Source: Prostheceraeus crozeri (Eukaryota > Platyhelminthes > Polycladida > Euryleptidae). From it: a DNA stretch of 64,000 nt. The notes beneath the pieces are model-generated. The model did not search any database. It was not told where the DNA came from and was given only the letters and a program-made list of their open reading frames with translations. Below, one piece after another: positions 12,480-39,103 of this stretch (positions are counted from its first letter, which is position 1; each line of letters starts with the position of its first letter). The position numbers and the translations under genes were made by a program. Location: positions 260,501 to 324,500 of the forward strand of contig CAJQUW010004404.1 in assembly GCA_907163375.1 (NCBI GenBank), given 5' to 3'.

Positions 12480-13900
12480 ATTACCATAGAAATTTATTAC
12501 TCAACGAAGATATCGGAGTCGCCAAAAAATTTCATATACTCATTGACAAAAGTTTTGAAACATTTACTTCTTTAACTTCTTTCATTTTTGACTGGTATAT
12601 ATACATGCATGTATGATACCTTGATAATTTAGTCACAATCTCCACCAAGTCGCTAGCACAGAAAAACAACGCATGTAGCAGATTCAACTGTAATAGCGCG
12701 TGTGCCCACCCTCTAGCTCCAATACATTCAGTAATCCGAGATGCTGCTCTGTCAGTCTTTCAGAGAGAATCTTCAGGGACACTGGTGGAAGTGAATAGCG
12801 GTCTCTCACTCACCGCTAAGCTCGTTCCAGACTTGTTCAATGGGTGAAAAGTCAGGTGAGCGCGCAGGCCAGTCAAGGGTTTGAATGTTCAATCTCCTAA
12901 CAGTGGCAATGACAGCCGAGGAGCGATGTGGTCTTGCGTTGTCGTCCAAGACGAGATCCTCCACCCTGACCACTGGGACAACAACAGGAAGCACAATTTC
13001 ATTGAGATACCTCTCTCCAGTCAACGTGCCTTTGATGATGACTGCTGTCGTTCGTCCGCCATGCCAAATGCCACCCCACAGCATAACACTTCCACCACCA
13101 TATCTGTCGTGTTCTTTAATACAGCATGGGGCAAAGCGTTCACCTGGAAGACGATGCACTCTGACACGACCATCATTTAAATCCAGAGTGAATCTCGATT
13201 CATCGGTCCACAAGACTTTCTGCCAGTGATGGTCATTCCATGAGCGATGGGCATCACACCAGACAACTCGTCTTCTGCGGTGCTCAAAACTCAATGGAAT
13301 TAGGACAGCTGGTCGTCGCGATTGAATTCCAGCTTCTCGCAATCTTCGGTAAGCCGTTCGAACGCTACAGTCTATATTTGAGGCACTCTTCCAGTGTGCG
13401 ACTAGCTTTGGGACTGACACAAATTTATTCCTCTTTGCAGCTAAAACTAGACGTGCGTCTGTCCTTCGTGCAGACTTTCTTGGTCGACCAGATCCCTTCT
13501 TCTTTTTAACATCCTCTGCTTTCCATCGACACCACCTCCTCCAAACAACGACTCTCGATAGTTGCAGCTCTTCGGCAACACTCGCACAACTTCCACCACA
13601 ACGAATCATTCCAATAGCCATACCTCTGATAAACTGATCGTGTGCCATTTTATTTTACAAAAGCTGGATTTCAGTTCACGTTTATGTTCAATTGGTAAAC
13701 GCAATTCTGACAGTTGTATCGATATCAAAATTTGAAATTTGACCACCCTAGATCTTTCTCCATTCTCTATTGTGTTGAATGGTAATACATAGAAAGCGAG
13801 ATATTGCATCATACCTGAGAAAAAAATGAAAAAAACTTCAATTCAAGCCAATGATAGTTTGTTTCATTAATTATGTCAATGAGTATAGTTTGCCGTCTTT
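12480..13900 (-). mobile_element. Tc1 element inside the Harbinger
   Basis: A Tc1 transposase (12806-13648, minus) with candidate diverged inverted ends. Left, about 12525-12555, has CATATACTCATTGACAAAAG. Right, about 13870-13895, contains the complement TGTCAATGAGTATAGTTTG. The exact borders and a TA duplication were not fixed. Confidence 0.6.
12806..13648 (-). pseudogene. Tc1-like DD34E transposase, damaged only near its C-terminus
   Basis: An open frame of 280 residues from an ATG. The N-terminal paired-like helix-turn-helix region contains 'RVVVWRRWCRW' and a GRPRK-type AT-hook-like 'GSGRPRKSARR' at about residues 50-60. All three catalytic residues are present: D in 'LWTDESRF' (about 147), D in 'LDDNARPH' (about 238) and E in 'SPIEQVW' (about 274). 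I count 34 residues between the last two, i.e. DD34E. The frame then stops at 'NELSGE'. The remaining Tc1 C-terminus ('RAASRITECIGARG') is readable in a neighbouring frame with one further stop, so the protein lacks its last 40-60 residues. It is the least damaged DNA transposase in the window. Confidence 0.88.
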
Positions 13901-15071: not shown

Positions 15072-16170
15072 TTATCCTCCTTGCCATTGACATTTATTGT
15101 GAAATACTTTTTGTCTCTTGATGATGCGAAAAGGACCAGAGTATGGTCTTTGTAGTGGTTTGCGATAACCATCACTGCGCACGTACACGTATTCCGAATT
15201 TGCAAGATCTTTAGGGATATAAGGAGAATTTGATCGGTTATGTTCAGTTTGACTTGGTTCAAGACTTCGCATTGTGTTTTGCAGCTGTTTGACGAATTCA
15301 CATGATGGTTGATTGAGACGAGCATTGTTGTCTCGGGTCATTTCTCCGGGAATACGTAAGGTTGTTCCATAAACTAATTCCGCAGGGCTGCAGCCTGGTT
15401 CAACTCTCCTCGTGCATCCAGCGTGAATTGTCCGTTCGAGCTTTCAGAGCTTGTTTAAGTTGACGATGCAGACGTTCGACAAGTCCATTTGCTTGTGGGT
15501 GGTAGGCTGTTGTCAATGTTGCTTCGGTGCCGATCAGTGAATTTAACTCAATCCACAATTTAGAGGTAAATTGTGGACCACGATCTGAGGTTATGTCGTC
15601 TGGGACCCCAAATCGAGCAATCCAATGATGTGTAAATGCCTTGGCACACGAAGTAGAAGTAGCATCTGGCAGTGGAATCGCTTCAGGCCAGCGAGTAAAT
15701 CTGTCGATGATTGTGAAAATATAAGTCATGCCTTCGATCGAAGGGAGAGGTCCAACCAAATCTACGTGTAAACTGCGAAATCGATCCATTGGAAGTGAAC
15801 GTTTTGAAAAGGGAGTACGGGTATGTCGAGATATTTTGCTGGTTTGACATGCGTGGCATTCACGACACCATTGTGTGTCTTTCTTCATTCCGCGCCAAAC
15901 AAAACGAGAAGTAATACCATGTTGAGTAGGGCGGGGACCAGGATGCGATAGACCATGAATTTGATTAAATATCATGCGGGTCCATGAACGAGGGAGTATT
16001 GGTCTAGGAGTTCCTGTTGAAATATCACATAAGATAGTCACATTTCCGAAAGACACATCTTTAAGATTCATATCGGCATCAGACGTGCGATAATCAGACA
16101 TTTCACCAGACTGAATTTGATCGCTTGCCAAACGATTACATGAAATGTTATGTTGTGATTGTAATTGCAC
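15072..16170 (-). pseudogene. Gypsy integrase remnant
   Basis: On the minus strand the frame 16170-15400 holds the zinc-binding HHCC region ('HGLSHPG' and 'CRECHACQ') and the catalytic core: D in 'HVDLVGPLP', D in 'TSDRGPQFTS' and E in 'ANGLVERLHRQLK'. It continues in another frame (15341-15072) with a C-terminal chromo-adjacent-like segment ('YVRSDGYRKPLQRPYSGPFRI'-type, a GPF/Y motif). The core triad is intact, but the protein has no N-terminal polyprotein and the frame is broken near 15395. Confidence 0.87.
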
Positions 16171-16218
16171 GTCTGATACCGATATGAATCTTCAAGATGT
16201 GTCTTTCGGAAATGTAAA
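16042..16218. repeat. Inverted ~50-bp repeat at the Gypsy deletion point
   Basis: 16042-16092 and 16166-16218 are near-perfect complements (both contain GACACATCTT and CATATCGG or their complements) with a 70-bp loop. This sits where the upstream Gypsy sequence was lost, so it records an inversion/duplication at the deletion joint. Confidence 0.8.
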
Positions 16219-19615: not shown

Positions 19616-20902
19616 AAAGCTATACAATGCTCTATTGGAATTGTACCGGCTTTAATTCTATAATAGGGAAAATGGATAGTATCAAGTTTTCTTTCTATGT
19701 ACATTTCTCGCAAGCTTAATACTGGCTCTAAAATCTACAGGAATTACGTTGATATCCTACTGTTGTACCTTGCGGCTTTTTTTAACTTTTTACACAGAAA
19801 CTTTGTTTTTGACTTGGGTCTCCTACCGGTACTTGTCATAAAGTTTTAATCGAAAGCTATTAACTAACAAGAATTTCATTTCACTTAATTGCATGTATAG
19901 TGTATTCATTTTATTCACATCCGTAAATAATGAGCATATTGCTTTAATCAGCTAATTAAATAGGCCTAATTAGTCTTCGATTAGATCAAAATTTGTCTTC
20001 CAATGATTGGCGTCACCATATCACATGGTGCCCACATTTTCTGCTGATCTTTATAACCAGCAAAAAACTGCATTGCGGTTTTTGCATTCGATGTAAGAAT
20101 CACGCCGGAATACTATGCTTTGATTCTTATGTGCATTGGGAGAGTATTCCTGTAATTGGAGTTCACGTGCTTTTGACCATTTTTTGCTTACTTTTGTATT
20201 TTCATACTAATGTGTATGCAAGGTGTATGCCCAGGTAACTACGAGACATATGCCCACTGCTGCCACCCAAGTAAGATGACTGCTCGTTTTGCATTGAGTC
20301 GCAGAATCGTACACGAGGTAATGAGATAGCGCGTAATGAGAGTAATTAGGTCCACACTTGTATTTACATAGTCGCCTTATGGAAGCATCTCAAAGTAGTA
20401 CCAACTCTCAGTGTCATCGCGCAGTGTTTCTAACGATAAACTCGGTAGCGGTGGTAAACTAACTCTCGATTTCGGTGATAAGGTTGGATTCAATCGTGTG
20501 GTAGAAGGCATATGACATGCACCTCGAAAATCGCTCATTCCACCTATCTTTGATAAGGGTGATCCTGGAGTTTTACTTTTTTTCAATCACGAACATCTGT
20601 CTCGTCTTTAGCGCCAAGATCTGTTTGTAGATTCACGGTCGATGGTTTCAGTTATACATGTTATTACTACATCGCAGCTCAGTGATACTGTTTTTCATGT
20701 GGAACACGAGCCGTAACTGTTTCAAACTTGTTACATGTATAGGCTTTATCTGGAATTGAATTCATAAGCAACTTCACAAGTTAAAAAACTTTCTCCGATC
20801 TTCTTTGTGGATACTTCATCGGAGCTATTTTTCAAGTTTTAAACATCACCGTGCTTCTCGCATAGTGTATTGTGTTTTCAGTGTGCGCATCCTGTTTTTC
20901 AG
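19616..20902. other. End of intron 1, no gene recognised
   Basis: A minus-strand frame at 20377-20586 (69 aa, S/P/L-rich, 'SPKSRVSLPPLPSLSLETL') looks compositionally protein-like, but no family is recognised and no splice structure supports it. The last bases form a polypyrimidine tract and the acceptor CAG before 20903. Confidence 0.45.
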
Positions 20903-21474
20903 ATCACTTTCTCATTATCATACATGATAAGAATGGCAAGTGAATTAGAGGCAAATATCGTTTCCGTGGAGAGAATTAAAGAATACACCGAACTTGAGAC
21001 AGAAGCGGCCTGGATTGTTGAATCATCGCGTCCTCCAGCGGACTGGCCAAAGGGATCGGTGCGGTTTGAGGATTATTCATGCCGTTATCGTGAAGGACTT
21101 GACCTTGTTCTAAACGATGTGTCATTCGAAATAAATCCTGGAGAAAAAATTGGTGTGGTAGGACGAACTGGTGCCGGAAAGTCTTCTTTAGTGACAGCTC
21201 TGTTCCGTATTATTGAATCTGCTGCTGGTCGCATTGTGGTGGACGATATTGACGTTTCTAAAATTGGTCTTTATGACCTGCGATCTCGGTTGACAACTAT
21301 TCCTCAAGATCCGGTTCTTTTCAGTGGATCTATACGCCTCAATATTGATCCAGAAGGTACGGCAAGTGATCAAGATATCTGGAATGCTCTGGAGGATGCA
21401 AATCTCAGCAGTTTTATCCGTGAAAGCGAGGTCGGGCTTGATAGGGAAATAACGGAAGGAGGAGAAAACTTCAG
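20903..21474 (+). CDS. ABCC/MRP transporter exon: linker and second nucleotide-binding domain
   Basis: 572 bp, beginning phase 0 with 'ITFSLSYMIRMASELEANIV', which follows directly on 'YALQ' of the exon at 629-961. It encodes the last membrane helix and the NBD2 start: 'SVRFEDYSCRYREGLDLVL', Walker A 'GRTGAGKSS' (21161-21187), the Q-loop region 'IPQDPVLFSG' (about 21299-21328) and the run up to the signature motif, 'EGGENF'. It ends after two bases of the serine codon of the signature; donor GTAAAG at 21475. NBD2 binds and hydrolyses ATP for transport in this family. No lesions; the gene is presumed functional. Confidence 0.97.
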
Positions 21475-21505
21475 GTAAAGTAAATATTCTGAATTTATCC
21501 TGTAG

Positions 21506-25267: not shown

Positions 25268-26218
25268 ATCAAAACCAATTGTTTTTTCCTAGAATATCAA
25301 ATTTTACACAAAAGTAGAGTTCATGAATGATCAGTTACACTCGCAGTCCCTTAATGTGTCCACCATGATATTCTTGGATCATTTGGAGGCGATCAATAAG
25401 TGATGCAGGTGCCTGCTGTACACCATCTGCTGAGATCGTCTCCGCACGAATAATCCTGGCTTTCAGCTTGGCCATTGTCAGCGGTTGTCCTGGGACATGC
25501 ACCAACCGCTTTAGATTTCCACAATACCAGAAGTCAACTGGTGTCAAGTCTGGAGACCGCGAAGGCCAGAAGTTGGGGAAAAAGTGACTGATTATGCGAT
25601 CTGTGGTGAAGGTGGTCTCCAGAAACTTCTTTGCGTTGCTCTTGATGTGGGGCGGAGCACCGTCCTGTTTGAGCGTGCTCGTCGAACATCTTCTGTGAGC
25701 CTTCAAGATTGGATTCACGTGAGTCACCAGCATGTGTAGGCATCCATTGACGTCAATTGTGCCGGATTTAAAGAAATACGGATGAATCATAAGTTAACCA
25801 CTGAATCTGATTTAAACGCACAATATGGGAGATTGAATTGTCTTTTCTGCATGATAGTGGGGATTGCTGGGACTCCATACGTAGGCATTTCTCGTGTAGA
25901 CCGGTCCATCAAAGTGAAAATGCGTCTCGTCCGTCCAAAGCACGGTCTCCAAATTGACAAGCTCACTATTAATGAACCATTCACCATGGTGTCTTCGCTT
26001 TTCGAAGTCATCTGGTTGTAGCTGATGGCGGATCGATATTCGGTACTTTTGGTATTGAAGCTTCTTTCGCATAACTGGATCAACACTAGATCGATCGCCT
26101 CCAGATGATTCAAGAATATCATGTTGGACACATTAAGTGACTGTGAGTGTAACTGATCATTCATGAACTCCACTCTTGTGTAAAATTTGATATTCTAGGA
26201 AAAAATAATTGGTTTTCA
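25268..26218 (-). mobile_element. Mariner-type element with ~130-bp fold-back ends
   Basis: 25268-25397 and 26088-26218 are complements at about 90% (AAAACCAATT, CCTAGAATATCAAATTTTAC, GTTCATGAATGATCAGTTAC and so on). The left arm contains the C-terminal coding sequence and stop of the transposase (minus strand). The right arm is therefore an inverted copy of the gene's 3' end, standing where the N-terminal coding region should be. No clear TA duplication was fixed. Confidence 0.83.
25335..26075 (-). pseudogene. Mariner/Tc-type transposase lacking its N-terminus
   Basis: Minus-strand order: 'LQPDDFEKRRHHGEWF', 'LWTDETHFHFDG' (first catalytic D), 'NAYVWSPSNPHYH', 'HPYFFKSGTIDVNGCLHML', 'LKQDGAPPHIKSN' (second D) and 'WPSRSPDLTPVDFWYCGNLK' (final acidic position; here SPDLTPVDFW). 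The end is a short tail and stop at 25335. This is the insect-like mariner subgroup with DGAPPH and SPDLxxxDFW. One frame change near 25790; the DNA-binding N-terminus is missing because of the fold-back. Confidence 0.87.
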
Positions 26219-26424
26219 TTTTTATAATTCTTAAAAAAGCTTTAAATTTACTGTAATGCACAACATTCTGTAACATGCCTTTAAGAAGTCAAATGAAGAC
26301 AAACTTACTATTTAACAAAACCTCATGATGTGCAGTTTCTACTGTGAAACTTCCAGACTAATCGATATTATAGGAGAGCTACCATCACCAATTAAAGTTT
26401 TTAGCGACCTTTGGGACACGCTGT

Positions 26425-26502
<78 letters not shown>
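26425..26502. repeat. (TA)n microsatellite, ~78 bp
   Basis: Uninterrupted alternating TA, ending in ATGTATGTAT. Long frames across it on both strands are artefacts of the repeat. A second, shorter (TA)n lies at about 27053-27072. Confidence 0.97.
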
Positions 26503-26510
<8 letters not shown>

Positions 26511-26514
26511 AATT

Positions 26515-26836
26515 TCAATGGAAAGATTTTTACAATAAGACATGACATGTCATGCTCAACACAAAATGTTATCTACGTAATTACATGCCACGGATGCAAC
26601 CAATATTACATTGGCGAGACTAAAAATACAATAAGGTGCAGAACAAGAATTCACAAACAACAGATTAACAACCCTAATTATAGACAGATAAGTTTAAGTG
26701 AACATTTAGATGTATGTGGACGAAGATCTTTTTCTATTTTCCCTTTTATAAGATGTTTTCTGATTGTGATGTAGAGAGAAAAAACAAAGAAAGATATTTC
26801 ATAGAATCCTTTGATCCATCACTCAATTCGACCTAA
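26515..26836 (+). pseudogene. GIY-YIG endonuclease fragment of a Penelope-like element
   Basis: The frame reads 'NVIYVITCHGCNQYYIGETK', the family's IY...YIG core with its CxxC knuckle. It is followed by 'RCRTRIHKQQ' (catalytic arginine region) and 'LSEHLDVCGR'. After a frameshift near 26750 it goes on with 'KMFSDCDVERKNKERYFIESF' and 'DPSLNST' to a stop at 26834-26836, the usual Penelope-like C-terminus. The reverse transcriptase is absent; upstream is only the (TA)n repeat. This copy differs in sequence from the pair at 38 and 63 kb and shows no inverted repeats. Confidence 0.85.
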
Positions 26837-27308
26837 TTATCTTACCCTCAACAGAAATCTATGGTGTACATAATCCTATGATTTTGAAGATATGTTCCAA
26901 ATTTCGATGTTATTTCTAATAACTAACTTTATGATGTATATTTCAAATTTTGTAAATAGCATGTTATCTAAATCTCATTACTTATAAAGCATCTGAAGAA
27001 AAGAAAGCGCTTATGCTTATAAGTAAAAGTCGTGTTTTCAATTTTAATTTCATTATATATATATATATATACATCGTAGAAAATTTCTTTTATCCAACAT
27101 TTGACCATAGTCTCATACTCAATGCATGTCCATATGTCGATTTGAATTCAAATGTATATGTATAGCCTTGATTTTTAATACTGAGATTCTTCCCTTTTAT
27201 TGCTGTCTGACGATTGGTAATGTTTGTATTTCCGTGAAACTTGCAGTTATGGCAATAAATAAGTAATCCAACTCCGCTTGCTTATTTACTATATATTAGG
27301 TGGGTGAG
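26837..27308. other. Likely 3' region of the Penelope fragment, then intron
   Basis: AT-rich sequence with a (TA)n at 27053-27072. Nothing coding is seen. Confidence 0.4.
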
Positions 27309-27309
27309 G

Positions 27310-28640
27310 TGAATAAGGCCCAGCTGGTAATAAGGCCCACTTGCTAGATCTCGGAAACTGCCTAACAAATTTAAGCGCAACAAAATTGAAATGAAAATAT
27401 ATCTAATTTCAAACAAGTGTCAGAAGTTTTATCGATTTTGGTCCAGTGGATCAGATTCTACAGCATCTCAAAAAAAGTACATTCAAATTTCTTCTTTGAT
27501 CTAATATTTGCTCTTCATTTGTTCAAGGATTTCATGACACAAAATATTGATGTATATGAGGTCTTAACATGGAAAATTATTTCTGGCGTATCCTCTCTAT
27601 AACCTTATGTAGTAGTTTGATTTTTGAGTTCGGGAAAGTACGAAAAAACACTGATTATAAAACGATGTCAATATAGCCAATAAGGACCATAAAAAATGCT
27701 GGTAATAACGCCCGGGCCTATCACAGTATAATCAGTACTCCGAAAATCCAACGAAAGTCAGATCCACCTAAAGGTAAGCGCAGTCTTACGTAGAAAGCAC
27801 AACTACGCACAAAAGAAATTTTTACTAATAAAAAGCGCTTTAAGCAAGCACCTATTCTATCCAAGAAGCTTAGTTGTAGAAAAGATGAGCAAGCTGGCAA
27901 TGAATCGTGGGATTGCAAAATTTGTGAGGAAGATGAAAAGTTAGATAGGCCTATGAGACAGTGTATGGCATGTGATGACTAATTGGGTATACACAATTGA
28001 TTAGATTGTGTTGGTTTAAGTCATGGAAGTGACGAAGATGAGTTCCCATTTGTTTGTCATGACTGTTCCAGTGTAGGCCTATAAAGTCTGTGTTTATGAC
28101 TGATAATATAATAGAGAGATTATGCAATACCAAATACGTTACCAAATACAAGGTTTCACCACCATATAGTTATTTTTTCCTCGTGTTAAAAATATGTTTT
28201 GTTTTTCAATAAAAGTCGATGTATTTGAATGAACAATTTTGGTTTTTCTTTTTTACATAGGGGCTTAACTTAAGTCCTAACTCTGAATTACAAGAACATA
28301 TTAGATCTAATCTCATTATACCAATTTGCGTACCAGAAGGTGAATACAATCCATTGTACGAGTATATAGCCTGATGTTAGAAATGACTTATAAACCACCT
28401 AAATTGAATACATTAAATAAAAACAAAAGTGGGCCTTATTACCTACACGTGTCGGTAATAAGGCGCACTCGGTGATTTTTCATCTTTTTGCTCGTACACC
28501 AGAAGTTTCGCAATAATCGACATGAACTTCTCACACATGTTTACTGCACCAGAAATAGATAATTTGAATACGAATTCGTAGTATTTAATCAAAAATTCAA
28601 GACTGTAGACCTCTAAGTCTGTTAGGTGGGCCTTATTCAA
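27310..28640. mobile_element. Non-autonomous element with AATAAGGCCCA ends and PHD-finger remnant
   Basis: Left end GTGAATAAGGCCCA (27309 on) and right end complement GTTGAATAAGGCCCACC (to 28641) are inverted repeats. A second, inner set GGTAATAAGGCCCAC (27326) has inverted and direct counterparts at about 28433-28466. Inside, 27897-28065 encodes a PHD finger, as found at the C-terminus of some pogo/DDE_1 transposases. The main transposase is not present. Target duplication not determined. Confidence 0.6.
27897..28065 (+). pseudogene. PHD zinc-finger remnant
   Basis: One frame on + gives WDCKIC, then QCMAC, a histidine-x3-x-cysteine pair ('IHN...LDCVGL') and 'FVCHDC', i.e. the C4-H-C3 layout of a PHD finger. 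Two in-frame stops lie between the second and third metal pairs. It was probably the C-terminal domain of a transposase whose catalytic part has been deleted. Confidence 0.65.
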
Positions 28641-32044: not shown

Positions 32045-32257
32045 TTTGGCGTCGTCTCGAACCTGGTCTGTTGGTGCGTCACGGAGAGGTGCGAATTCTG
32101 CGAGGAGCCTTCCTTCGAGTGGGAGTGACGTGTGCTGCTATCTTCTGCATCTATCGATTCAATTCCAAGGCCAATTCCCCGGATCGGATGACTATACTAC
32201 TGTAAGTTGCCCTTCTAACCATTCACTTTTTGAGCCTCATTTCGGTTAGCTTAAGTC

Positions 32258-35200
32258 ATGTCAGGTATTAAGCCACCCGGTACACTGAACCCAAATGATA
32301 TTACTATCAACAACTTCGAATTATCGCTAGAAGCATTCAATGATTATGTTGAACTTACTGTGAATAAAGTAGATGATAAGAAGTTACGTAGTTTATTTCT
32401 GGCAATCGGTGGTCTTGAAATCCGCAAGGTTGTAAATGGGCTAACTGTATCTGATAACAAGTTCGCAACATTGATTACGGCAGTTCGAAAGTATTTTCAA
32501 CCAGTCAAAAACGTTATACTGGAACGGCTCAAGTTCTTTAATATTCAAAGACATAATGACGAGGATTTACAAGCATTTCTGATTCGCTTAAAAACTCAAG
32601 CTGAAAATTGTGATTTTGACGATACTTCAATTGAATCTACAAAGAAGCAAATGATTAGAGATCAGTACTTACGTTGTGTTAATGATCGCAAAATTACTGA
32701 GTACCTACTTACCTTCAATGTACTTACCTTGGATGACGTAGTTGAAAAAGCTGAAGGATTGTACCAAGCTTCTAAAGATGCTAGTTCATTCGCTCAAAAC
32801 CCACAGAATGATAGTCAATTACTCACTTTCAAAGGCAAAAGCAAAGATGCTGACAGATGTTACAAGTGTAATATGTTTGGTCATCATGCAAAAGATTGTT
32901 CCGCTTCTACAAAAAGTCCATACTGCGAAAGTTGTAATCGTAAAGGACATGATACTCGTAACTGCTTCAAGAATAGAAAGTGTAATTATTGTCACAAATT
33001 TGGACATACTGAGAACTATTGTCGACTCAAAAAGTCACGAGATCGTATACGCAGCTCAAATGGCGCAAATCCAAAGAAAAACAAACTCCTGATTCTAGGT
33101 TCTGAGAATCAGCAAGGTAGTTTACGCTACGCAGATGTATCATTCAATGATCACAATGCATCATTTCTCATTGACACAGGCGCTACTTTTTCGGTTATTT
33201 CATGCGCAGTAGTCAAAAAGTTTGATTTGACTAAGTCTTTGAAACCATGCAAATTTGATGGTATAATGGCAGACAAATCAAGAGTTTCAATTACAAACTC
33301 GTATACCTGTAACCTCAATGTTCAGGGCAAAGAATTTGAGTCTACCTTGTACGTAGTGGATACTAACGACGATGGTATCTTGGGCATGGATTTACTTCCA
33401 TTAATCGGTTTGCACATTGGTCCCGAATCAGGCATCATATTCTCTCTTGTACCAAGTTTGTTGCATCAGTACAAAGATTTATTCGACAAGCCTCTGAAAG
33501 ATAGTTGTCTTACTGGTATTGAACCGTTTGAAATTATCAAGCTTGATGATAATTCAGTGCCTAAACAAAGTGGTCAAATGAGATTGAGTAAGCCACATCA
33601 GGAATTTCTGACAAAAAAGGTCAAAGATTTATTGGAACAAGACGTTATTGAAGAGTCAATTAGTCCTTGGAGACATAATCCTCGAATCGTCTCAAAATCT
33701 GATGGTTCTTATAGAATGACTATAAACTATAAACCAGTCAATGCCGTTACTACCTTTGATGCTTATCCTTTCCCAAATTTGGAGAACATATTGGATGATT
33801 TAACTGGAGCAAAAGTATTCAGTCGCATCGATTTTTCGCAATTTTATCACCAGCTGCCTCTTGCTGAAAGTGATAGATTCAAAACAGCATTTCAAGCTAA
33901 CGGTAGACTGCATCAGTACAAGCGCTGTCTTTTTGGTCTTAAGAACGCAGTTTCATACTGTTCAAGACTAATGTCAAAAATCTTTGAAGGCATTGAAAAC
34001 ATCATCGTCTATCTCGATGACGTATTGATTTATGGCAATACACGAGCCGAGCATGATAAAGCTTTGAAAAATGTTCTGGAGCGCGTCAAGCTTCACAATC
34101 TCTCTTTGAACGTTAAGAAATGCGACTTTGAGAAAAGCTCTATTGTATTCCTTGGTCACTTAATCGAAAATGGAAAAGTCAGGCCAGACCCAGAGCGTCT
34201 TAAACCATTACTCGACTTTGAAGTTCCAAAATCATCGATTCAATTGCAACGCTTCTTGGGATTAGCGACTTATTACAGCAAATACATTCGAAACTTCAGT
34301 GGCATATCAAAGGTCTTGTACAAAAATTTGAATGATTTTCAAGATTGGTCAGCATTAGAACTGCAGACATTCGATGACATCAAAAACGAAATTGCTAGTT
34401 CAATGCTAATCATTCCAAAACAGGATGAAGAACTATACTTACGTACCGATGCGTCTAAGGAAGCTATTGCTGCCATACTGGAAACGAAAGACAGACGTCC
34501 AGTATTCTTTTGTTCGCGTGTTCTGAATTCAGCTGAACAAAACAAAGACATCGTCGAACTAGAAGCACTCTCAATCTTCTGGGGTATTATTCGATGCAAG
34601 CATTTCCTATTGGGCAGACATTTCAAAGTGTTGAGTGATCATAGACCGCTACAGTATTTATTCAATAACGAGAACTGTAATTCAAAACTTGCCAGATGGA
34701 GATTACAATTACAAGAATTCAATTTTGAAGTTATTTACTGCAGTGGTAAGGACAATGTAGCCGCAGATTGCCTCAGTCGCTTGACATCAATTGATTTTGA
34801 TAGTTTTGAAATTCTCACAATTGATCAAGTTACGAATTCCCAAAGGTTTGACAAAGAAACTCAATCTATGATTACAGCAGTTGAAAGAAATTACAAACAT
34901 AAACCGCATGATGTATCGGATTCTGTATGGAAATTACGAAAGTCTCTGAAAGTCAAAGACAAATTACTCAAAAGTTCGTCTGATCGTCTATTCATACCGT
35001 ATTCCTTACGACTTAAGGTATTGACTCTTGGACATGGTTGTCACTTGGGTAAACAACGAACTATGGAAAGAATAAGAAATCAGTTATTTTGGCCGAATCT
35101 GAATAATGACATTACCAATTTTGTTATCAATTGCCGAATATGCTCTATGGTTAAACCGGGATTCATAAGTCCTGAATCATCACCAGTAATCACCAAATCA

Positions 35201-35812
35201 CCGATGGAAATTGTCGCATGTGATTTTGTTGGACCGCTACCCACAAGCAACGGTTACAAGTATCTACTTGTTCTCATTGATGTCTACTCTAGATATCCAG
35301 TTGTATTTCCGCTTAAAGAAATGTCCACAACAAGCATGATCAAATGTTTTGGAGAATTCTTTTCGTTATTTGGATTTCCAGACTCAATCTTGTCTGATCA
35401 AGGTTCCCAATTTGAATCTACAGAGTCCCGGAGCTACCTGAAACGTTATGGTATAAAGAAATTACGGACCAATGCATACCATCCTTCCGGCAATGGACTC
35501 TGCGAGAGGTTTAACAAGACAATCAAGAAGCTGATGGTATCCTGTGTAAGTGAATGCTCAATGAACATGAATGAATGGCATAAAGTACTGAAGAAATGCA
35601 TGTTGGAATACCGCACATCAGTTCATAGCAGTACCGGCTATCGTCCAGTTGACCTATTCTTCGCATTCAATGCCCATGGCTGTCTCCCTTTCGAAAATTC
35701 AAAACCGAAGAATGAATCAATGGCAAGCAATCTGAAATCGCAGATGAGGAACAAGATTCAAATCGACAAACGTGCAAGGAACAGATACTTCAAACCTGGT
35801 GAAACCGTCTGA
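32258..35812 (+). CDS. Gypsy gag-pol polyprotein
   Basis: A single frame of 1184 residues from ATG, with gag and pol fused and no frameshift between. Gag: N-terminal helical region, then three CCHC knuckles (about residues 200-255; C-x2-C-x4-H-x4-C). Protease: 'LIDTGATFS' with DTG at about 304. Reverse transcriptase: 'INYKPVN', 'FSRIDF', 'YLDD' at 585-588. RNase H: 'RTDASKEA' at about 730. Integrase: H-x-H/C-x2-C zinc region ('HGCHLGKQRT', 'CRICSM'; about 925-965), then D in 'ACDFVGPL', D in 'SDQGSQFES' and E in 'NGLCERFN' (about 988, 1047, 1083). It stops at 'GETV' through a one-base shift; the expected C-terminal tail continues in another frame. All enzymatic motifs are intact. The protein would make capsid, copy RNA to DNA and integrate it. 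Confidence 0.95.
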   Translation: MSGIKPPGTLNPNDITINNFELSLEAFNDYVELTVNKVDDKKLRSLFLAIGGLEIRKVVNGLTVSDNKFATLITAVRKYFQPVKNVILERLKFFNIQRHNDEDLQAFLIRLKTQAENCDFDDTSIESTKKQMIRDQYLRCVNDRKITEYLLTFNVLTLDDVVEKAEGLYQASKDASSFAQNPQNDSQLLTFKGKSKDADRCYKCNMFGHHAKDCSASTKSPYCESCNRKGHDTRNCFKNRKCNYCHKFGHTENYCRLKKSRDRIRSSNGANPKKNKLLILGSENQQGSLRYADVSFNDHNASFLIDTGATFSVISCAVVKKFDLTKSLKPCKFDGIMADKSRVSITNSYTCNLNVQGKEFESTLYVVDTNDDGILGMDLLPLIGLHIGPESGIIFSLVPSLLHQYKDLFDKPLKDSCLTGIEPFEIIKLDDNSVPKQSGQMRLSKPHQEFLTKKVKDLLEQDVIEESISPWRHNPRIVSKSDGSYRMTINYKPVNAVTTFDAYPFPNLENILDDLTGAKVFSRIDFSQFYHQLPLAESDRFKTAFQANGRLHQYKRCLFGLKNAVSYCSRLMSKIFEGIENIIVYLDDVLIYGNTRAEHDKALKNVLERVKLHNLSLNVKKCDFEKSSIVFLGHLIENGKVRPDPERLKPLLDFEVPKSSIQLQRFLGLATYYSKYIRNFSGISKVLYKNLNDFQDWSALELQTFDDIKNEIASSMLIIPKQDEELYLRTDASKEAIAAILETKDRRPVFFCSRVLNSAEQNKDIVELEALSIFWGIIRCKHFLLGRHFKVLSDHRPLQYLFNNENCNSKLARWRLQLQEFNFEVIYCSGKDNVAADCLSRLTSIDFDSFEILTIDQVTNSQRFDKETQSMITAVERNYKHKPHDVSDSVWKLRKSLKVKDKLLKSSSDRLFIPYSLRLKVLTLGHGCHLGKQRTMERIRNQLFWPNLNNDITNFVINCRICSMVKPGFISPESSPVITKSPMEIVACDFVGPLPTSNGYKYLLVLIDVYSRYPVVFPLKEMSTTSMIKCFGEFFSLFGFPDSILSDQGSQFESTESRSYLKRYGIKKLRTNAYHPSGNGLCERFNKTIKKLMVSCVSECSMNMNEWHKVLKKCMLEYRTSVHSSTGYRPVDLFFAFNAHGCLPFENSKPKNESMASNLKSQMRNKIQIDKRARNRYFKPGETV

Positions 35813-36389: not shown

Positions 36390-36507
36390 AGCCTCACAAA
36401 TTTTAGCGCCTAGTCGCAGAGCAACACCGATTCTTAGTGACTCATCGTCCAGAAAAAACAAAGCCGGATGTGAGTCAATAAGCATCAAACGGCTATAATT
36501 GAAGATC

Positions 36508-36765
36508 CCAAGAGGTGCAACTGATCAGGCTTGGTTTCTCTCATCGTCGGAAGAAAAACTGAAATTTCATCAAGATGAAGTTTAAATGAGTCCATATCAT
36601 AACCGAGATTGATCACTTCACACTTAGATGTGCTCAACTGATCCAAGAGGTCCAACTGATCAGGCTTGGTTTCTCTCACCGTAGGAAGAAAAACTGAAAT
36701 TTCATCAAGATGAAGTTTAAATGAGTCAATATCATATCCGAGATTGATCACTTCACACTTAGATG
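36508..36765 (-). repeat. 123-bp tandem duplication inside the RT pseudogene
   Basis: 36508-36630 and 36643-36765 are about 95% identical and separated by 12 bp. The unit encodes 'SKCEVINLGYD...ISVFLPT.RETKPDQL' of the RT. Because 123 + 12 = 135 is divisible by three, the frame stays open across both copies. Confidence 0.9.
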
Positions 36766-37160
36766 GATTGATTTCTAAACCGATATTGGCCAAACGGGGA
36801 ATTATTGTCGGTAAATCCGTTAAAATAGTAGAAGCTGGACCGGCAATTGTAGCATCGTCTAAATACCAAGCATTAAAAGGGCAAGTGACTAGATGTACAA
36901 TTTAATCAACTCCAAGAGCAAGAGACAAAGGCCCAAGGGGATCTCCCTGTTGGATTCCTGTTGATGGATCAGCAAAAGTTTTCTCGAAAAGTAGAAGAGT
37001 TTGCGATGACCACACTTGTTTTGCAAAAACAAGAGAGCTGGGTACTCTTCCGTTCAAAACTTCCAGCATATGATCTCGACGTAAAGTGTTGAATGCGTTT
37101 TTCACATCCAATTTGATCATGATGTGCGGTTCATTAGAATTAGACAACTTATTCTCGCCC

Positions 37161-38003: not shown

Positions 38004-38078
38004 GATGATTTATTCCACTACTACAGTTTTTGAATAACACGTAACAAGGCGATACGATGTCAAACTACTTGGGCATAA

Positions 38079-39091
38079 AATTTTATAGTTCCGCTTGAAC
38101 AACATGTTGTTTATAATTTACTCGAAAAAGCCTTGCTGTTGTTTATATGGCATTTATTGCCCAAATGTTCGCCTACTCAGGCCGCTTCAGGGGTGAAAAG
38201 GGTATATAGATATAGAAGGTTATTTTGGGAAAGGATTCATACATAGAAAGTCAATGTCATAGAATTATTGAAAGATATTTCCATTACTTTGTGAAAAGGA
38301 ATTGGCGATATTGTTCATTCTTTTCACGTGAATTGATGGTGGGTTGGAATTTCTTTATCAACAGTGCTTCACGAAGACGATTTATATCCGAAAAAGTGAA
38401 TTGTCAGATAAAGAAAGTTTTCCAACGAGAAGATTTAAATATCGGTTTAGCTCAAAAGTCATATACTCTAAGAAACGCATTGAAGAACCATACCAAATAT
38501 GAAACAAAATGTCAACTTACCTCATGTCCAATTCAAAACAATGAACTTTGCTTCAAGAAAAACGTAATTTACAAAATAACATGTCTCAAGTGCAAAAATG
38601 CCTATATCGGTAGTACAATTAGAACTTTACACATCAGAGTGAAAGAGCACAGAACACAAGTAACATCATCAGTTTTCAAACATTTGCAACAATGCCATAA
38701 CAAGAATGTACAAGTCGACATATTAGCTCATGAAAGCGACAATACCAACATTCGTCTTCGTGAAGCACTGTTGATATAGAAATTCCAACCCACCATCAAT
38801 TCATGTGAAGAGAATGAACAATATCACCAATTCCTTTTCACAAAGTAATGGAAATATCTTTCAATAATTCTATGACATTGACTTTCTATGTATGAATCCT
38901 TTCCCAAAAATAACCTTCTATATCTATATACTGTAGGCCCTATATACCATTTCAACATAACATCTTATAGATTTCAAATTTTAAGTGTTTGTAGAATATC
39001 CTCCTTTTCATCCCTGAAGCGGCCTGAGTAGGCGAACATTTGGGCAATAAATGCCATATAAACAACAGCAAGGCTTTTTCGAGTAAATTAT
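38079..39091 (+). mobile_element. Compact Penelope-like element: GIY-YIG region between inverted repeats
   Basis: Flanked by a perfect 12-bp direct repeat ACTTGGGCATAA (38067-38078 and 39092-39103). The body is a left arm (38113 to about 38365) and a right arm (about 38779-39091) that are complements except for a ~66-bp block present only in the right arm. A 34-bp single extension (38079-38112) lies at the left end only. Penelope-like elements typically have such inverted or direct terminal repeats and, in the best-known one, a 34-bp extension. The right arm includes the end of the coding region, so the left arm is an inverted copy of the 3' end. No reverse transcriptase is present. Confidence 0.85.
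38356..38779 (+). CDS. GIY-YIG endonuclease domain of the 38-kb Penelope-like element
   Basis: The uninterrupted frame runs to a TAG at 38777-38779. It formally opens upstream at 38225, but everything before about 38356 is inverted-repeat sequence, so the N-terminal 40 residues are not family sequence. Visible parts: 'KVNCQIKKVF', 'YTLRNALKN', 'CQLTSCPI', the core 'NVIYKITCLKCKNAYIGST' (IY/YIG with CxxC), 'HIRVKEHR' (arginine) and 'IRLREALLI' (glutamate). All expected catalytic positions are present. The TAG cuts off about 20 residues still readable in frame ('KFQPTINSCEENEQYHQF'). In complete elements this domain nicks target DNA beside the RT. Confidence 0.8.
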
Positions 39092-39103
39092 ACTTGGGCA
39101 TAA

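Follow-up and report, generated by a model that had tools for sequence, protein, structure and literature searches.

In vitro, the protein of the Penelope-like element (PLE) of Anolis cuts and extends both strands of the DNA; its reverse transcription begins at two neighbouring internal sites, between which a short tail lies, and the strands are reported not to differ in start site (PMC11167929). The later steps that complete both ends of a PLE insertion were left for validation in that 2024 study. The tail is called optional there and in the available sections of PMC3846280, which treat Adineta vaga; the elements of D. virilis are the subject of PMC12910113, as far as its available part indicates.

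The locus that we compare with these systems lies in a 64,000-nucleotide stretch of contig CAJQUW010004404.1 (hereafter the window) from the 2.05-Gb assembly of Prostheceraeus crozeri. A PLE insertion occupies 38079-39090 of the window, and flank comparison places a perfect 13-bp target-site duplication, TACTTGGGCATAA, at 38066-38078 on the left and at 39091-39103 on the right. A preliminary description of this DNA had recognized the perfect duplication, giving its length as 12 bp, and had concluded that the short form itself inserted, which the 13-bp duplication around the whole copy bears out. Between the duplications, the inverted 3′ ends of the element point outward. The left end alone carries a tail (38079-38111, minus strand) that reaches 33 nt beyond the tail-less end; its inner edge is ambiguous by 2 nt, giving a tail of 33–34 nt, in agreement with the one-sided extension seen at first. 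In the reference copy, the tail codes for the ORF’s first 10 residues (MLFKRNYKIL). Arm alignment assigns 38112-38380 (minus strand) to the left arm, an inverted element 3′ end from reference position R2789 outward, and 38381-39090 (plus strand) to the right arm, a 5′-truncated element corresponding to R2412-3121 and stopping at the tail-less end. The arms span ~369 and ~710 reference nt, take in the end of the coding region as had been described, and meet at an inner junction (38380/38381) where 1 nt is shared. Inverted identity between them is 98.9% over 90 nt (38112-38201 against 39003-39092) and 97.2% over 180 nt (38202-38380 against 38752-38931); the left arm has a deletion of ~71 nt at 38201/38202, the counterpart of which in the right arm is 38932-39002. 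The outer ends of the copy stop at two places ~33–41 nt apart, one tailed and one tail-less.

Within the right arm, the C-terminal part of a former RT-EN frame encodes a GIY-YIG domain (PF01541) at 38561-38776 on the plus strand, matched by Pfam within 38381-38778 at E 3.9e-5 and 24.3 bits (cut-off 22.6). The frame is stopped by a single TAG at 38777-38779, where the left arm reads AAG, and past the TAG it continues to a TAA at 38846-38848. Downstream of the TAG lies the stretch FQPTIN, which we take to be among the GIY-YIG catalytic positions, so the frame is almost open, as first described, but the complete catalytic set then credited to it is present only if the stop is ignored. No reverse transcriptase (RT) lies between the two target duplications, again as described.

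Other mobile-element and host sequences occur in the window. A second, different GIY-YIG fragment at 26532-26774 (plus strand; PF01541, E 4.6e-6), probably from another Penelope-like family, adjoins a long TA repeat at 26424-26511; besides that repeat, no long inverted arms were seen in 25900-27600 among 25 of 39 pairs listed. An open frame of 1185 aa at 32255-35812 (plus strand) encodes protease, RT, RNase H and integrase and is an LTR-type (Gypsy-like) polyprotein without internal stop. A 135-bp tandem duplication (36508-36765; 1.9 copies, 95%) sits within a minus-strand open frame at 36485-36901 that has no Pfam match. An ABC transporter host gene is represented by two likely exons (PF00664, PF00005) at 602-985 and 20843-21478 on the plus strand, with transposon frames between them; a Tc1-type transposase frame of 282 aa (12806-13654, minus strand; PF01498, PF13358) and a separate integrase frame (15400-16191, minus strand; PF00665, PF17921) are also present.

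Longer relatives of the PLE copy exist in the same assembly, as the preliminary description had supposed. A similarity search of the animal's own genome gave 448 first-look candidates, the best 40 of which were scored (166 matches). One relative, L044 on contig C934, has an RVT_1 match at E 3.7e-14 upstream of the EN region, in interrupted frames. The family thus combines RT and GIY-YIG in one coding region, of which the window copy holds the EN part only. These RT-encoding relatives, together with the GIY-YIG match and the inverted 3′ ends, uphold the Penelope-like identity first proposed. Further traits by which PLEs are recognized were also found: pLTRs stand in direct and inverted order at L044/L041 on C934, the arrangement known from A. 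vaga Penelope (PMC3846280), a tail of 30–40 bp lies at one end, at the ORF start, and target duplications vary in length. Such duplications scored at least 9 in 20 of 21 copies, the remaining one, L046, having no scored duplication, and did so in 7 of 7 copies of a second set (L064-L070). When flanks were paired across copies as a chance control (462 pairings), none scored 10 or more and eight scored 9, against a score of 13 for the window. The duplication at C791 is 12 bp; those at C413 and C7176, read by eye, are imperfect. A protein search returned three fragments, one of which (P0001, ENA), from another source, matches 62% of the query at 98% identity and extends upstream of the nuclease, and no relatives appeared among solved structures (best E 0.52). 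For the hammerhead ribozyme, which is common in PLE pLTRs and not defining, there was no Rfam match in the window copy or in L044:6150-6750, and the hammerhead core CTGANGA is absent from R1-420 of the reference. Sub-threshold matches to microRNA families on the inverted arms were taken as fold-back artefacts.

The preliminary description had further proposed that the window copy represents a non-autonomous class that keeps only the nuclease, multiplies as such and is mobilized in trans by a full element, a proposal to which the clean target duplication and the nearly open GIY-YIG frame lend themselves. However, a 26-letter pattern across the inner junction (38369-38394, plus strand), allowed up to 3 mismatches, matched the 2.05-Gb assembly once, at the window itself; other short copies sharing this junction would have supported the proposal, and a lone match had been named beforehand as the refuting outcome. 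A pLTR pattern gave 259 matches and its reversed control none, indicating that a pattern search can see the family. Among the 21 two-armed copies mapped on the reference, all 21 pairs of inner ends are different, and the nearest look-alike of the window copy, L031, is joined differently. Arm lengths grade continuously from 42 to ~3157 nt, and four of the seven copies in the second set (L064-L067) have arms of 54–144 nt without any nuclease. Of the 259 pLTR places, the first 100 were listed and contain 27 close pairs, spaced 58–4618 nt apart (913 nt in the window), and the sole spacing repeated among the listed pairs, 2046 (C7702 and C9440), reflects one insertion present twice, with flanks identical at 60 of 60 letters. 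Given the unique junction and the continuum of arm lengths, we rejected a self-multiplying nuclease-only class, which we regard as extremely unlikely. The best reading is that the nuclease frame is passive and lay by chance within the reach of the longer cDNA, so that no special class is needed to explain short PLE pieces that have a clean target duplication and part of a nuclease frame.

What recurs across the family is an asymmetry of the outer ends. All 31 two-armed copies for which both outer ends were sequenced have one tailed end and one tail-less end. This count comprises 21 copies from the similarity search, C7176, the seven loci L064-L070, which were fetched whole, and C413 and C791, which were read by eye. 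The first 22 came from the search for similarity to the window, which biases them towards loci with an arm across the nuclease region; the nine pattern-list copies are free of that bias, L064-L070 having been picked for short spacing and C413 and C791 for their early list position. Dropped before the count were L044, a duplicate of L041; L049, L052/L053 and L075/L076, the host flanks of which are also inverted; L038, L040 and L062, each with one outer end unreadable; and ten single-armed loci (L023, L026, L029, L035, L037, L039, L042, L056, L057 and L060). The rule applies to one PLE family in one assembly, with part of the 259 pLTR places sequenced. It is not stated in PMC11167929 or in the available sections of PMC3846280, and may have been noticed earlier in the subscription-journal Penelope literature.

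Pattern positions provide a second view of the same ends, resting on 100 of 259 pLTR places and 100 of 175 tail places listed. By these positions alone, 21 of the 27 listed pairs have an exact tail on one side, none on both, and six have no exact tail; two of those six, the window and C7176, prove by sequence to have one diverged tail. If 21 exact tails fell on the 54 ends at random, the absence of any double-tailed pair would have a P value of 0.0012. Pairs known from pattern positions only, and so outside the 31, have an exact tail on one side at C1378, C1793, C1830, C7419, C7702, C9440 and C9894, and lack one at C4529, C4868 and C9496. All 27 close pairs found in the 100 listed pLTR places face outward, and at seven further listed places a lone pLTR without an exact tail of its own has opposite it, on the other strand and no more than 2.7 kb away, an outward exact tail. 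In 9 of 21 copies the tail arm exceeds the other arm in length. Outer-end positions vary by a few nt between copies, and in L051 the tail-less end falls ~20 nt short of the usual place. Two subfamilies differ by an insert of ~11–15 nt just before the tail-less end (family-wide, the pLTR edge); the subfamily is the same at both ends in 27 of 28 copies scored, the discordant one being L058, with a tail arm of only 42 nt.

Three loci depart from the tail rule. L049 and C3107:238-243k have no tail and C3107:522-526k, which was fetched because it looked like an exception, has two. At all three, the host flanks are inverted copies of one another (605 nt at 92.9%, 202 nt at 98.5% and ~50 nt at 100%, respectively), indicating that these are duplicated loci and not single insertions. 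Whole PLE loci are inverted-duplicated at L049 (C4285) and at L052/L053 and L075/L076 (C3107), either as real palindromes or as assembly errors. Inverted duplications that include host flanks therefore do occur, and a two-armed copy might in principle be such a duplicated locus, or two separate insertions, mistaken for one insertion. The window copy, however, has one target duplication around the whole and no inverted repeat in its host flanks, and the flanks were not inverted repeats in 14 of 14 two-armed copies tested, where the positive control L049 came out as inverted; we find this origin scarcely credible. As a separate observation, the same insertion with its flanks occurs twice at L041/L044 (C934), L056/L057 (C12837 and C4287) and C7702/C9440, as unmerged haplotypes or segmental duplications. 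The ten single-armed loci thus include one insertion seen twice (L056 and L057). Two others, L037 and L039, are tailed, have target duplications of 13 bp and 12 bp with ~10–14 nt between the duplication and the truncated end, and are one-ended products of the same PLE family, showing that a second arm is sometimes not made or is lost.

The inner junctions bear on how the two arms were united. In raw counts over 21 copies, six junctions share 1–9 nt, two are blunt and 13 contain filler of 2–45 nt, which in L034 and L047 includes repeats of adjacent sequence; the L031 junction was counted as a 9-nt filler, its 0-nt local alignment being spurious. Microhomology and filler at junctions are a mark of polymerase-theta-like end joining, and the pattern observed fits microhomology- or polymerase-theta-like joining. 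The positions of the two inner ends were negatively correlated (Spearman −0.575, P 0.006), which we set aside as an ascertainment effect: the candidate ranking needs one arm over most of the query, a requirement from which the pLTR pattern sample is free. Inverted repeats with a central junction would also be produced by self-priming, in which one cDNA snaps back and copies itself, and a fold-back origin is proposed for A. vaga Penelope in the available sections of PMC3846280. The inner ends of the two arms, however, lie 41–3001 nt apart on the reference (median 548; 21 copies), and the outer ends differ, tail against no tail, in all 31 copies although a fold-back copies its own start. We rejected self-priming on these unequal inner and outer ends and consider it very unlikely.

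Divergence between arms points to their templates. Within copies the mean was 0.0286 (23 copies), against 0.0435 after re-pairing, and 0 of 2000 re-pairings were as low. In L032 the arms are identical over 743–749 compared sites, and the nearest other copy differs by 0.8%. These sequence comparisons suggest that the two arms of a copy tend to derive from a single source locus and perhaps from a single RNA; some of the resemblance could stem from gene conversion between arms. For the window copy, the arms differ at 5 of 263–269 compared sites in addition to the 71-nt gap, so the two arms there need not come from a single RNA. The same data weigh on the idea of a palindromic master with one tailed and one tail-less end that moves as a unit, the short forms being internal deletions that inherit the one-tail pattern. 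Such a master would also yield one tail per copy and variable inner junctions, and pairs up to ~4.5 kb apart exist (C4868, by pattern positions only). Yet tail arms do not group together, as arms of the same type differ by 0.0451 and arms of different type by 0.0441, whereas arms within a copy share their source, most plainly in L032. End positions that shift by a few nt between copies and single-armed copies with target duplications also speak against it, and no near-complete palindrome was found among the loci fetched. We regard a palindromic master as improbable.

Taken together, both-strand extension by the Anolis protein in vitro and the genome data argue for two-ended target-primed reverse transcription. 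The element’s endonuclease would make a staggered double-strand break with 3′ overhangs, and both overhangs would prime reverse transcription. One cDNA would start at the tail site, a little way into the ORF, and the other at the tail-less site, the pLTR edge, and each would run a different distance (~369 and ~710 reference nt in the window). End joining of the microhomology or filler type would then unite the two cDNA ends, and the target duplication would arise by gap filling. The window copy is likely to be one individual, twice-truncated insertion of an ordinary RT plus GIY-YIG Penelope-like family, made by such two-ended priming. A stronger proposition, which we consider evenly balanced, is that a completed two-ended PLE insertion obligatorily uses two RT start sites, one per broken end, so that the ‘optional’ tail would be the footprint of a fixed division of labour and not of a start site picked at random. 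A dimer, for example, might have its two RT subunits loaded ~35–40 nt apart on one RNA. Standing against the two-ended model are the single-armed loci, L046, L051, L058 and the differences between the window arms. The Anolis data also count against it in one respect, as the start site showed no strand difference there and one tail per copy is not predicted by that result alone.

Among described elements, Pen2a_Av of Adineta vaga resembles the present family, in the available sections of PMC3846280, in its RT and GIY-YIG domains, its pLTRs with an outward inverted pLTR, its 5′-truncated and internally deleted copies, its target duplications (9–10 bp) and its 31-bp tail on one inverted pLTR; the tail of A. 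vaga Penelope lies at the start of the ORF, as here. Unlike Pen2a_Av as described in those sections, the two arms here are short and have much of the EN region in common, and the tail, optional in that account, sits at one end and one only in all 31 copies. In PAc, the Poseidon element of Anolis carolinensis, the tail likewise lies close to the beginning of the ORF, between two internal RT start sites, and both strands were cleaved and extended in vitro; PAc has a hammerhead ribozyme where none was found in the present family, and no one-site-per-end rule is reported for it (PMC11167929). The tail itself and both-strand cleavage and extension are thus already published, and the one-per-copy rule is the added part: the element is ordinary, and its value lies in a countable rule (31/31) for how Penelope-like elements finish both ends. 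In LINE-1 twin priming, both target ends likewise prime reverse transcription, giving inverted and truncated insertions that lie within a single target duplication and are joined by microhomology, and the second primer starts inside the RNA, such that the two pieces do not overlap. In contrast, the arms described here both start at the same 3′ region and overlap, which makes them palindromic.
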